From Bacillus sp. KH172YL63 (GTDB taxonomy: Bacteria > Bacillota > Bacilli > Bacillales > Bacillaceae_B), in assembly GCF_011398925.1 (NCBI RefSeq), contig NZ_AP022842.1:794001-858000 (forward strand): a DNA stretch of 64,000 nt, written 5' to 3'. Position 1 is the first letter of the stretch. Each line of letters starts with the position of its first letter. The notes beneath the pieces are model-generated. The model ran no database searches and was not told the DNA's origin. It worked only from the letters and a program-made list of their open reading frames with translations. Positions 16,837 to 52,740 of the stretch are shown in pieces. The position numbers and the translations under genes are program-made.

Positions 16837-16863
16837 GACAGCGTATCATAAATACATAGCGTT

Positions 16864-16934
16864 ACTCGTATATCCTCGGTAATATGGTCTGAGCGTCTCT
16901 ACCTGGTTCCCACTTTAAGAACCAGACTACGGGT
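16864..16934 (+). ncRNA. Guanine-type purine riboswitch aptamer
   Basis: P1 arms ACTCGTA / TACGGGT close a three-way junction with the purine-aptamer core: TATCCTCGGTAATATGG, GTCTCTACC, then a P3 hairpin (TGGTTC / GAACCA) and GACTACGGGT. The junction 3' segment reads GACTA, so the specificity base is C (as in xpt guanine riboswitches) rather than U (adenine type). It binds guanine or hypoxanthine and should switch off the downstream gene when ligand is high. The next gene is a predicted extracytoplasmic nucleosidase. Confidence 0.92.
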
Positions 16935-16985
16935 CTAAGTGTTCGGTTTTTTTGCCGTACTGACAAATCGTTACTTTGCCCATCA

Positions 16986-24429: not shown

Positions 24430-24597
24430 TTGACGAATTAGATTTGCTTTTTCTCGTCATTTCTGTTATTCTAAAAAAGAATTATTTTTGTTCGGTCTGT
24501 AAGGAAAGAATAAGTTTTCAACTTTTCACCTTTGATATCTAATTGAGCAACGATAGTAATAAATCGTGGACACGGGTCCACACAGGAGGAAACACAC

Positions 24598-24798
24598 ATG
24601 CAAGAAGGTACAGTAAAATGGTTTAACGCAGAAAAAGGATTCGGATTCATCGAAATCGAAGGTGGAGACGATGTATTCGTACATTTCTCAGCTATCCAAG
24701 GCGAAGGATTCAAATCTTTAGACGAAGGTCAAAAAGTTACATTTGACACTGAGCAAGGTCAACGTGGACTTCAAGCGACTAACGTAGTTAAAGCGTAA
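24598..24798 (+). CDS. Cold-shock protein, CspA/CspB family
   Basis: 66-aa single-stranded nucleic-acid chaperone. It has the OB fold with RNP1 KGFGFIE and RNP2 VFVHF, plus the typical N-terminus [16 protein letters not shown] and C-terminus [16 protein letters not shown] precedes the ATG. The ~110-base leader (24481-24597) is conserved in the decayed copy upstream at 23879, suggesting that it carries a functional element such as a cold-responsive leader. Bacilli usually carry several paralogues, so no specific csp symbol is given. Confidence 0.96.
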
Positions 24799-24810
24799 TA
24801 GCTTTATAAA

Positions 24811-24842
24811 AGGAAGGGCTCTCTTTGAGGGTCCTTTTTTTG
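24811..24842 (+). terminator. csp terminator
   Basis: AAGGAAGGGCTCTC and GAGGGTCCTT form the stem, followed by seven T. Confidence 0.8.
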
Positions 24843-49969: not shown

Positions 49970-50904
49970 GGACGTGGAGAGTCGGATCGATATCAATGGG
50001 GACCCTGCTCCTATTCCTGGGAGTGCTATTGCTGCTTTCCCAACTGGCTGGGTGGGATTCATCCCATGTGCTGGCAGGATGGTGGCCGGTGCTCCTGATC
50101 GTGTTGGGTGCGGAAATACTGGTGTATCTGTTTCAATCGAAGGAGGAAAAGCCTCTATTAAAATATGATTTCCTGAGCATTCTTTTTGTAGGATTCATCG
50201 GGATGATTGGAATCGGATTCACAGTCCTGCAGGCGACCGGACTGATGGATCAGGTGCACAGATTGTATGAATCTGAAGTGAAAACCGGGAATCTCCCTGT
50301 TTATGAACACAAAGTGGGGGATGACATCAAGCGGATTGTCGTGCGTGCAGAACATCAACCTCTGACAGTCGAAACGAATACAGGTAAAGAATTGAGCGTA
50401 TTCGGGACGTACCGTTCCGATCAAAGCGGAAAAGGTTCACTGCTGTCCGGCCCGGAAGATTATCTCATGGCGAAGGAAAAAGGGGACACGCTTTATATCA
50501 CGTTAAAAAGTCTCCCAGAAACCAATGGGTGGATACAGGCAAGAAATGAAATGGAACCGACTCTTATTGTACCGGCTTCCGTGTCCCTTGAAATTTCCGG
50601 TGACTACAACGAAATCACCCTGAAACCGAGAACTCTTTCAAGCTCATGGGCGGTATCGAGTGTATCAATCGTCAACCTGCTCCTCTCCTCAACAGAAAAT
50701 GCAAACATCTCTGCAGAAAATGTAGGTAGCATTCACGGGGAAGACGAGAATTGGCAGCCTGCACAAACCGCTGAAGCCGAAGCAGGCGAAGGCGACTACA
50801 GTGATGGCAGTGGATACCACAGCGGTACCCTCACACTCGGGAATGGCCAACACCCCATCACCATCACCAACGCAGATCAGCTGAACGTATCCATTAAAGA
50901 CTGA
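49966..50904 (+). CDS. Membrane protein with LiaI/LiaF-like N-terminus and beta-rich C-terminal domain
   Basis: 312 aa. The N-terminus has two short membrane hairpins (SMGTLLLFLGVLLLLSQLAGW and WWPVLLIVLGAEILVYLF), then a third helix (FLSILFVGFIGMIGIGFTVL), like DUF5668/LiaF-type envelope-stress proteins. The outside part is beta-rich (DIKRIVVRAEHQPLTVETNTGKELSVFG; ATVPASVSL-type repeats), resembling the DUF4097/adhesin-like domains of such systems, though this match is loose. ATGA overlap with the preceding gene. Last gene of the ECF operon, immediately followed by a composite palindrome. Likely senses or protects the envelope; inference only. Confidence 0.7.
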   Translation: MRTWRVGSISMGTLLLFLGVLLLLSQLAGWDSSHVLAGWWPVLLIVLGAEILVYLFQSKEEKPLLKYDFLSILFVGFIGMIGIGFTVLQATGLMDQVHRLYESEVKTGNLPVYEHKVGDDIKRIVVRAEHQPLTVETNTGKELSVFGTYRSDQSGKGSLLSGPEDYLMAKEKGDTLYITLKSLPETNGWIQARNEMEPTLIVPASVSLEISGDYNEITLKPRTLSSSWAVSSVSIVNLLLSSTENANISAENVGSIHGEDENWQPAQTAEAEAGEGDYSDGSGYHSGTLTLGNGQHPITITNADQLNVSIKD

Positions 50905-50905
50905 C

Positions 50906-51052
50906 GTGAGGGACGGACCTCCACACAGCAATCATTTCCGGAAGGTGGGCGGGGGGAAATCCCTTTAGAATAAGGATTCTGATAAGGGGACGGACCTCAA
51001 GCACGGTCCCATTTCCTTCAAAATGACCCTATTTCAGAGGTCCGTCCCTCAT
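50906..51052. repeat. Dispersed palindrome, composite copy 2
   Basis: Outer arms GTGAGGGACGGACCTCC (50906-50922) and GAGGTCCGTCCCTCAT (51037-51052), with a third arm GGGGACGGACCTC at 50986 inside. It begins one base after the preceding stop codon. Part of the interior (TAGAATAAGG) also occurs in the copy at 54442. Confidence 0.85.
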
Positions 51053-51135
51053 CCAAATGGGCTAAACCATATCTTCCCATGGGGCTTCTTTTGTGTTAGA
51101 ATGGGGATAATTTATATGAAATGGAGGTTTTCCTG

Positions 51136-51177
51136 TTGATTTTAATCAGACTTCGCATCCGCAATTTGAACGCATAA
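51136..51177 (+). CDS. Leader peptide upstream of hflX (MILIRLRIRNLNA)
   Basis: A 13-codon frame: TTG ATT TTA ATC AGA CTT CGC ATC CGC AAT TTG AAC GCA TAA, with GGAGG eight bases before the TTG. The RLRIR stretch contains two overlapping Arg-x-Arg motifs; (R/K)-x-(R/K) is the known macrolide-dependent arrest motif of Erm-type leader peptides such as ErmDL (MRLR). A 7-codon frame from ATG 51116 overlaps it as TTGA. It lies about 300 bases before hflX, upstream of an intrinsic terminator. That it is translated is inference. Confidence 0.6.
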   Translation: MILIRLRIRNLNA

Positions 51178-51195
51178 TTGAATATGTTCAAAGGC

Positions 51196-51440
51196 TCTGC
51201 CTGTGCGCAGGGTAAATGGGATCGGTCTGACTATTTCTATGGAAAGCTTCATTTGACGTGGAAGGGGGAAGGGATGCTGATTGGCTCTCTTCCTTGTCTT
51301 TATAGAGATAGAATTGAATAGTTGACGGGTGATCGTGATGGGTGCATTCACAGGATGCGCCAGAAGAGATGCGGGCTTCTTCATGCCACCTTGATGATTC
51401 AATACCATTTACAAAACACAGGCAGATGTCTGTGTTTTTT
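51196..51440 (+). promoter_or_regulatory. hflX leader: attenuator with candidate antiterminator pairing
   Basis: The terminator AAAACACAG, 8-base loop, CTGTGTTTT plus T run occupies 51413-51440. CACAGGCAGA at 51417-51426, which includes part of its 5' arm, is exactly complementary to TCTGCCTGTG at 51196-51205, just downstream of the leader peptide. TCTGCCTGTG can instead fold locally with GCGCAGGG. Ribosome stalling on the leader peptide could therefore free it to break the terminator. A second small frame (MLIGSLPCLYRDRIE, 51274-51321, with AAGGGGGAAGGG before its ATG) and a weaker one starting at 51339 lie between. Confidence 0.6.
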
Positions 51441-51477
51441 TCTGCGCTAATAAATGAAATGAATGGGAAGTGACGAA

Positions 51478-52740
51478 ATGATGGAAGAACGTTTAAAAGC
51501 GATAGCAATAGGCGTCAATACAAAAGATAAAAATAATGACTTCGACTACTCCATGCTTGAATTAAGGGGACTTGCCGAAGCGAGACATATGGATGTGGTC
51601 GGTGAACTGACTCAGAATCTGCCAAGACCGAATCACGTTCATTATATCGGGAAAGGGAAGATTGAAGAACTGGAGCCACTGGTGGAAGAATGGGAGGCGG
51701 ATGTACTTATCTCGAATGATGAACTCTCACCTTCGCAGATCCGGGTGCTGGAAGAAAAGCTTGATATCCGGGTCATGGACCGGACGATGCTGATCCTGGA
51801 TATTTTCGCTGAGCGCGCAAATACGAGGGAGGCCAAACTGCAGGTCGAGGTCGCCCAGCTTCAATATATGCTGCCGCGCCTGATCGGCCGCCGGGAATCA
51901 CTTGGACGCCAGGGAGGCGGATCGGGACTTTCCAACCGTGGAGCCGGTGAAACGAAGCTTGAACTTGACCGCCGCCGGATCGAGGATAAGATCTCTGCGC
52001 TCAATAAAGAACTGGATTCACTCGTCGACCTCAGAACGACTCAGCGCAAACAGCGCCAGAAGAGTGAAATCCCGGTTGTATCCCTTGTCGGTTATACGAA
52101 TGCTGGGAAATCGACGACGATGAATGCATTCGTGGAAACATTCCATCCGAATGAGAATAAGCAGGTATTCGAAAAGGATATGTTGTTTGCCACGTTGGAG
52201 ACATCGGTGAGAAACATTACTCTGCCGGACAAAAAGGCATTCCTGCTCACAGATACAGTCGGGTTTGTGAATAAGCTTCCCCATCAGCTCGTGAAGGCGT
52301 TCAGGTCTACCCTTGAAGAGGTGGTCGAAGCAGACCTCATCATCCATGTGGTCGACTATTCTGATCCCCATTATGAGAAACTGATGGAAGTGACAGAGCG
52401 TACCCTTTCAGACATCGGTGGCGGCGATATCCCTGTTATTTACGCTTTCAATAAAGCTGAGCTTGTAGACGAAAATGTCCCTCGTGTCGAGAAGGACCGC
52501 ATCTATTTCTCAGCTAAAAATAGAATCGGCATCGATGAACTGCTGACTGCTGTGAAAAGTCATATTTTTAAAGATTACAAACGCTGTGAAATGCTCATTC
52601 CCTTTGACAAAGGACACTTGATTTCATATTTCAATGAGAATGCCAACGTGCTGGACACCCAGTATGAAGAGAACGGTACAAAGCTGACCCTTGAATGCAA
52701 GCTGGTTGATGCTGAGAGGTATCGGGAGTTTATCGTTTAA
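51478..52740 (+). CDS. hflX: Ribosome-splitting GTPase HflX
   Basis: GTPase that binds the 50S subunit, splits stalled 70S ribosomes and in Listeria (HflXr) gives macrolide/lincosamide resistance. The ~420-aa product has the HflX N-terminal domain (LAEARHMDVVGELTQNLPRPNHVHYIGKGKIEEL), the GGSGLSNRGAGETKLELDRRRIEDKI linker signature, and G motifs GYTNAGKST, DTVGFVNKLPH and NKAE. ATG 51478 (MMEERLK) is better spaced from GGAAGTG than ATG 51463. Placed behind a long leader with an attenuator, so expression is probably controlled by translation status. Followed by its own terminator. Confidence 0.95.
   Translation: MMEERLKAIAIGVNTKDKNNDFDYSMLELRGLAEARHMDVVGELTQNLPRPNHVHYIGKGKIEELEPLVEEWEADVLISNDELSPSQIRVLEEKLDIRVMDRTMLILDIFAERANTREAKLQVEVAQLQYMLPRLIGRRESLGRQGGGSGLSNRGAGETKLELDRRRIEDKISALNKELDSLVDLRTTQRKQRQKSEIPVVSLVGYTNAGKSTTMNAFVETFHPNENKQVFEKDMLFATLETSVRNITLPDKKAFLLTDTVGFVNKLPHQLVKAFRSTLEEVVEADLIIHVVDYSDPHYEKLMEVTERTLSDIGGGDIPVIYAFNKAELVDENVPRVEKDRIYFSAKNRIGIDELLTAVKSHIFKDYKRCEMLIPFDKGHLISYFNENANVLDTQYEENGTKLTLECKLVDAERYREFIV

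Follow-up and report, generated by a model that had tools for sequence, protein, structure and literature searches.

An hflXr-type leader with a predicted transcription attenuator in Bacillus sp. KH172YL63, and the probable sharing of its RNA module among resistance genes of Bacilli

The region 51074-51477 of the window, i.e., of the whole analysed stretch of 64,000 nucleotides from Bacillus sp. KH172YL63 (contig NZ_AP022842.1, positions 794,001 to 858,000 of the forward strand), is very probably an hflXr-type transcription attenuator governed by ribosomes, and a copy of a homologous RNA module that in Bacilli also stands before resistance genes of other classes. Judged by sequence, the leader is not specific to hflX. 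It is considered probable that the leaders of hflXr, of erm(D/K) and of many mph, Mef-like, ABC-F, erm, RlmA(II)-type, LmrB-like and SDR genes represent one homologous module, distributed over unrelated resistance genes and operons in Bacilli and on plasmids (one of them in Acinetobacter), and not independent look-alikes; that a match to this module may point to resistance genes against ribosome drugs that have gone unrecognised, such as the SDRs; and that the variants lacking RxR (LmrB-like, SDR) may respond to other drugs. With this locus, described in its full anatomy, the mechanism demonstrated in Listeria is extended to an environmental genus, and the breadth of the module matters more than the hflXr locus alone: if true, a leader common to eight gene families would place resistance genes of different chemistry under a single inherited drug sensor, and such genes could then be searched for through their switch.

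The gene behind the leader is one of the two hflX copies in the 4.25-Mb, single-contig chromosome, the other one (G000:C1:1686414) being 45% identical to it. The closest solved chain to the window protein is 8a57_D (494.9 bits; the next chain 281.1), and 8a57 is what we take to be Listeria HflXr, while the other copy gives 289.1, 286.6 (8a57_D) and 272.1 bits against the main HflX chains. The window gene is assigned to the HflXr type, as nearer to Listeria HflXr than to other HflX and accompanied by a separate second copy in the genome, since 8a57_D is preferred by the window copy and the second copy scores alike across the main chains. The nearest named hflX loci, 79-95% identical, belong to Rossellomorea or to Bacillus strains of that group, and the genus is accordingly taken as Rossellomorea.

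The open reading frame upstream ends at 50904, and the gap of 573 bases (with the hflX start at 51478), put at about 570 bases and called not empty in the first-pass annotation, indeed holds a uORF and a terminator, together with the other features collected in Table 1. The same gap contains copies of GAGGTCCGTCCCTC, a REP-like dispersed palindrome, often in inverted pairs, with 16 sites in the window (at most one mismatch; 0.02 expected), including 50908-50921 and 51037-51050, and with 100 exact copies in the genome against 0 in the backwards-read control; it is also met just upstream of the leader in many relatives. No family of Rfam 15 matched the window leader, and in 18 further loci the Rfam search gave nothing at the leader position, with two matches elsewhere in these loci. 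Elsewhere in the window, a purine riboswitch (16846-16949) and a cspA thermoregulator (24470-24841) both exceeded the Rfam gathering scores.

Table 1. Features of the hflXr leader and gene, in window positions
Feature	Position	Strand	Basis
Promoter-like site TTCCCA, 17, TGn-TAGAAT (extended -10)	51074..51102	+	consensus scan, 9/12
Shine-Dalgarno GGAGG of the leader peptide	51123..51127	+	read from sequence
Putative leader peptide uORF, 13 codons, MILIRLRIRNLNA, TTG 51136-51138 to TAA 51175-51177	51136..51177	+	sequence; translation predicted only
RLR arrest codons AGA CTT CGC	51148..51156	+	sequence; first RxR kept in most relatives
Anti-antiterminator 5' arm CAGACTTCGCATCC, within the uORF	51147..51160	+	full-leader fold
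Hairpin TTTGAAC/GTTCAAA across the uORF stop codon	51165..51192	+	fold; sequence variable in relatives
Hairpin GCTCTGC/GCAGGGT, sequestering the antiterminator in the OFF state	51194..51213	+	fold; RNAalifold consensus
Antiterminator strand CTCTGCCTGTG (TCTGCCTGTG = 51196-51205)	51195..51205	+	exact complement of 51417-51426
Anti-antiterminator 3' arm GGGATCGGTCTGA, among the most conserved RNA parts	51218..51230	+	fold and alignment
Stem CTATTTCTAT/ATAGAGATAG around a terminator-like hairpin without a good U-tract here	51231..51311	+	fold, comparison
Intrinsic terminator, 11-bp stem 51413-51423 with 51428-51438, U-tract 51435-51441	51413..51441	+	-13.4 kcal/mol
hflXr, start ATG 51478 or 51481	51478..52740	+	TIGR03156 435.7 bits, cut-off 216.75

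Transcription would start near 51109; the promoter-like matches of the consensus scan are at chance level (2 found vs 1.9 expected), and a stretch resembling 51074-51102 is visible in most of the Rossellomorea loci compared. The 13-codon frame with its own GGAGG was read as first annotated, and a Shine-Dalgarno sequence stands in front of the uORF in most relatives. There is an in-frame ATG at 51121, overlapping the Shine-Dalgarno sequence of the uORF; the 13-codon reading is supported by R. marisflavi (L020), in which ATG replaces the TTG of the window. Both overlapping Arg-x-Arg motifs pointed out at first pass are present in the peptide (RLR as R5-L6-R7, followed by R7-I8-R9), but the second is incidental, only the first being general in relatives (RLRFQ, RLRFP, KFRF), with RQR in the nearest named relative (L003). 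The intrinsic terminator before hflX was also found, although a simple terminator scan missed it, and the exact complementarity of TCTGCCTGTG to CACAGGCAGA in it holds over all 10 bases; of 2000 leaders shuffled by dinucleotides, 7 contain an exact complement of at least 10 nt to the terminator 5' arm. The anti-antiterminator is a third arm, missing from the first-pass annotation: in the fold, the uORF segments CAGAC (51147-51151) and GCATCC (51155-51160) pair with 51218-51230.

The behaviour of these arms was computed by partition-function folding, with the 5' edge moved along the leader to mimic a ribosome hiding the RNA. In the full leader, the terminator has a probability of 1.00, and so has the AGAC:GTCT pair, which drops to 0 from the 5' edge at 51152 on. 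The antiterminator reaches a probability of 0.56 with the edge at 51152 and 0.89, 0.90, 0.81, 0.93, 0.82 and 0.91 with the edges from 51158 to 51188, and at 51194, where it begins to be lost, its probability is 0.10 and that of the terminator is back to 0.90. In the computation, the terminator and the antiterminator are thus mutually exclusive and switched by the ribosome position on the uORF. According to the toeprint rule in the accessible part of PMC6851288, the edge of a ribosome that has Leu6 in its P site would fall at about 51166. The antiterminator is also favoured in the folding when the RNA up to the uORF stop codon is removed, and the specificity for an RLR stall therefore rests on kinetics and not on the fold.

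For the hflXr leader, the parts, their conservation and the computed two-state folding are established, and the translation-sensing attenuator proposed at first pass gains support from sequence, comparison, computed folding and the Listeria precedent. Without drug, ribosomes would translate and then leave the 13-codon uORF, the RNA of which would pair with the anti-antiterminator 3' arm, the antiterminator would be kept in its local hairpin, the terminator would form and hflXr would be off. With a macrolide-type drug, a ribosome stalled at RLR would cover the anti-antiterminator 5' arm, the antiterminator would pair with the terminator 5' arm, and the RNA polymerase would read into hflXr, whose product would split the stalled ribosomes. 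The steps of uORF translation, drug stalling, termination and induction at hflXr are taken over from the Listeria and Erm precedents and would apply here by analogy.

The conservation of the leader was followed with a regular expression, by which the RNA core was found before 50 of the 80 named hflX loci and in the window, and with a covariance model, R1, built from 32 hflX leaders. R1 is mostly a sequence profile, with 6 pairs, and a match to it therefore means homology, not function. It matches 67 of the 80 named hflX loci (36 of them outside the training set) and gives no match at the paralogue locus L002. Among the 36 genomes of the genus (Rossellomorea) there are 37 R1 matches, 30 upstream of hflXr and 7 elsewhere (17 of the 37 were placed by coordinates only); judged by coordinates, each of the 30 carrier genomes has a match immediately before hflXr, and none was found in the six genomes with only the other hflX copy. 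The motif [RK]x[RK] is present in the uORF with the top Shine-Dalgarno score in 90 of 95 hflX-type rows (five are without it), where named and unnamed copies of one locus are counted separately. The first-pass annotation had held its reading to fall if the peptide or the complementary segments were unconserved in related species; these counts speak for their conservation.

As to covariation of the two 10-base segments, which it had proposed to look for, none was shown: the antiterminator/terminator pairing beyond the fixed anchor is 0.562 vs 0.570 for re-dealt partners, 1318 of 2000 re-dealings being as good (26 distinct combinations, 48 of 67 rows usable), and only single cases appear compensatory (GCC/GGC, CCC/GGG, ACC/GGT). 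From the 32 leaders, RNAalifold recovered 6 pairs at the antiterminator-sequestering hairpin, one of them with a double change, and nothing else; the uORF pairing, the register of which shifts, is absent from this consensus.

The strings CTCTG and GTCTG downstream of the uORF are invariant in the 32 leaders and the peptide is variable, an aptamer-like picture that would fit a ligand-binding riboswitch or a protein-controlled terminator with an incidental uORF. Such control is very unlikely, as the Shine-Dalgarno sequence, start, stop and [RK]x[RK] of the uORF are kept in most loci, the conserved arm pairs with the uORF itself, and in Listeria, according to the accessible part of PMC6310831, the induction is abolished by ErmC expression and needs the start codon; the riboswitch reading was rejected on this Listeria precedent. 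It is hardly probable at all that the window leader is a remnant of a former attenuator, with hflXr now constitutive or silent, since the window leader has kept all its parts, with exact pairing; decay seems to occur in the genus, namely at L023, where RLR has become RLE, the antiterminator has diverged and the terminator U-tract is lost, which is apparently a joint decay and also counts in favour of the attenuator reading.

Beyond hflX, the seven extra matches in the genus precede Mef-like MFS genes, and the one that was scanned (L144) is below the Mef cut-offs. R1 matches were found in 106 of 299 genomes of an order-level sample (E 0.001) and in 100 of 398 genomes of a class-level sample (1e-4), the two samples sharing genomes; 123 of the 128 order-level matches and 75 of the 93 out-of-order class-level matches were examined. 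When classed by the first downstream ORF of at least 180 aa within 1 kb, 126 of the 132 genus and order loci (L112-L243) precede hflX or one of seven other families, namely mph 31, hflX 28, Mef-like 25, ABC-F 23, RlmA(II)-type 7, erm 6, LmrB-like 4 and SDR 2, and the misses are two other genes (L161, L192) and four loci without a usable ORF (L121, L141, L193, L237). The classes were named from NCBIfam scans of 20 representatives, in which the models for ABC-F ribosomal protection, Erm23S_rRNA_broad, DHA2 efflux and the PRK08263 SDR model were over the cut-offs, and those for Mph, Mef, LmrB and the G745/G748 methyltransferase gave strong matches below the strict cut-offs. In 73 of the 75 out-of-order loci, classified by blastp to the order-level proteins at 1e-20, one of these families is the first classified gene, 16-464 nt 3' of the motif (hflX 20, erm 18, mph 12, Mef-like 9, ABC-F 6, rlmA 5, LmrB-like 3). 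R1 leaders are also located at L297, where the gene that follows encodes an MFS transporter belonging to neither the Mef nor the LmrB group, and at L279, before a 123-aa ORF matching none of the eight classes.

Nine of 17 plasmid records were examined, and all nine leaders match R1; they stand before an RNA methyltransferase and Msr (Priestia), ErmD (B. licheniformis), Mef(F)-Msr(G) (Lysinibacillus), Mph (Planococcus, Exiguobacterium, Priestia) and SDRs (Latilactobacillus, and Acinetobacter near IS26). Leaders 94-97% identical over 116 nt precede different classes, as in L173 (mph) and L179 (ABC-F) or in L155 (Mef) and L246 (Erm). Part of the class spread is operon shuffling, the arrangements ABC-F-mph, rlmA-ABC-F, Mef-ABC-F and erm-hflX being present; at L024 (552-2000; Metabacillus arenae), the R1 match is 1.3 kb upstream and stands before the erm gene directly preceding hflXr, i.e., in the erm-hflX arrangement. 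The tree of 181 leaders requires 35 gene-class changes, with the least possible number of 7 and a shuffled mean of 95.8, but its resolution is poor, 106 of 178 inner branches being open on 122 columns; its starred branches alone force at least four class changes for mph, three for ABC-F and two each for erm, Mef and SDR.

The motif [RK]x[RK] is kept in 31 of 34 mph, 26 of 26 Mef, 22 of 23 ABC-F, 9 of 9 rlmA and 7 of 8 erm leaders, and in only 1 of 4 LmrB-like and 0 of 4 SDR leaders, which suggests that the latter two, where it is mostly missing, may respond to other inducers. Three mph leaders (L234, L243, L233) keep the RNA match with a peptide devoid of RxR. The SDR loci (L236, L241, L248, L250) are on plasmids in two of four cases, one of these in Acinetobacter near IS26, and the LmrB-like loci (L195, L206, L235, L240) lie behind R1-type leaders whose uORFs are mostly without RxR. 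The SDR and LmrB-like genes behind R1-type leaders are candidates for unrecognised resistance genes.

The computed switch was assessed in distinct leaders with [RK]x[RK], which leaves out the SDR class and three of the four LmrB leaders, by an in silico stall at RxR, a fall of the terminator probability from at least 0.6 to at most 0.3 being taken as a switch and leaders with a scrambled antiterminator stretch as controls. The stall switches the terminator in 47 of 78 hflX leaders (scrambled 7/146; the other 31 fail the criterion), 5 of 7 erm (0/14), 7 of 8 rlmA (3/16), 7 of 22 ABC-F (1/44) and 0 of 1 LmrB (0/2), and the computed switching is weak in Mef (8/26; scrambled 6/52) and mph (7/31; 4/62). 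In these computations, the hflX, erm and rlmA leaders would behave alike, and the ABC-F leaders in part.

The pairing itself was also compared between the classes. Exact antiterminator matches of at least 7 nt are found in 29 of 80 hflX leaders (2.1 expected), 3 of 8 erm (0.3 expected), 2 of 31 mph, 1 of 23 ABC-F, 0 of 26 Mef, 0 of 8 rlmA and 1 of 2 LmrB, the SDR ones being not locatable. With G-U pairs allowed, the duplex energy does not exceed the 5th percentile of shuffles in hflX 62/91, erm 6/8, rlmA 8/9, ABC-F 10/23, mph 11/31, Mef 4/26 and LmrB 1/3. Antiterminators borrowed from other classes pair equally well or better in mph (-12.0 vs own -9.4), ABC-F (-13.1 vs -12.2), rlmA and Mef, and the pairing is therefore class-specific only for hflX and erm.

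The many family leaders without a computed switch, and the reports of translation attenuation or stabilisation alongside transcription attenuation for the tlrB and mef(E) leaders, in the accessible parts of their sources, would agree with a main control by translation attenuation or by mRNA stabilisation through the stalled ribosome, and not by transcription termination. Since the window terminator has a strong stem and a U-tract, and the hflX start region takes no part in the predicted switch, this is most unlikely for the window, and transcription attenuation remains the preferred reading there.

Among the known systems, the attenuator of Listeria monocytogenes rli80-hflXr (lmo0762), shown by mutation and RNA-seq in the accessible part of Duval 2018 (PMC6310831), resembles the window in the arrangement of parts, i.e., a short RLR uORF, a terminator, an antiterminator and an anti-antiterminator before the second, HflXr-type hflX copy; however, the Listeria uORF has 14 aa and an ATG, against 13 and a TTG in the window. 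The accessible part of PMC8632094 describes uORFC-6-1, with 51 representatives, primarily before hflX and mainly in Bacillales, which likewise combines a conserved uORF with Arg-Leu-Arg and a structured RNA upstream of hflX and is likely the R1 leader, as compared by description and not by alignment; unlike uORFC-6-1 as published there, the R1 matches reach many other resistance genes. As for erm(D)/erm(K), the leader before ErmD on the B. licheniformis plasmid pBL141-1 matches R1 (86.2 bits, uORF MTHSMRLRFPTLNQ), but the gene in Bacillus licheniformis is a methyltransferase, and the leader peptide differs outside RLR; ermK is under transcription attenuation, as stated in the accessible part of PMC4335068. 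The mef(E)/mel and tlrB (yxjB) leaders, as far as their sources are accessible, share with the window an RLR or RYR macrolide-arrest peptide and a terminator, a likeness at the level of these two parts, and the tlrB peptide, MIIQFIRYR, is unlike that of the window.

In the accessible part of PMC4335068 (2015), the Mef(E)L and Erm(K)L peptides are printed and the mef(E) and erm(K) 5' regions are given as without homology beyond the peptide, and in that of PMC11264731 (2024), the uORFs and palindromes of erm genes are postulated to be possibly independent in evolution. A shared RNA module is not described in the accessible parts of PMC6851288, PMC10314930, PMC9226507, PMC11109978 and PMC8116656, and no report of a shared leader module was found in the open-licence literature searched, which leaves out most subscription papers. 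The mechanism has been published for Listeria, and uORFC-6-1 in front of hflX for Bacillales; the breadth of the module is the unexpected part.
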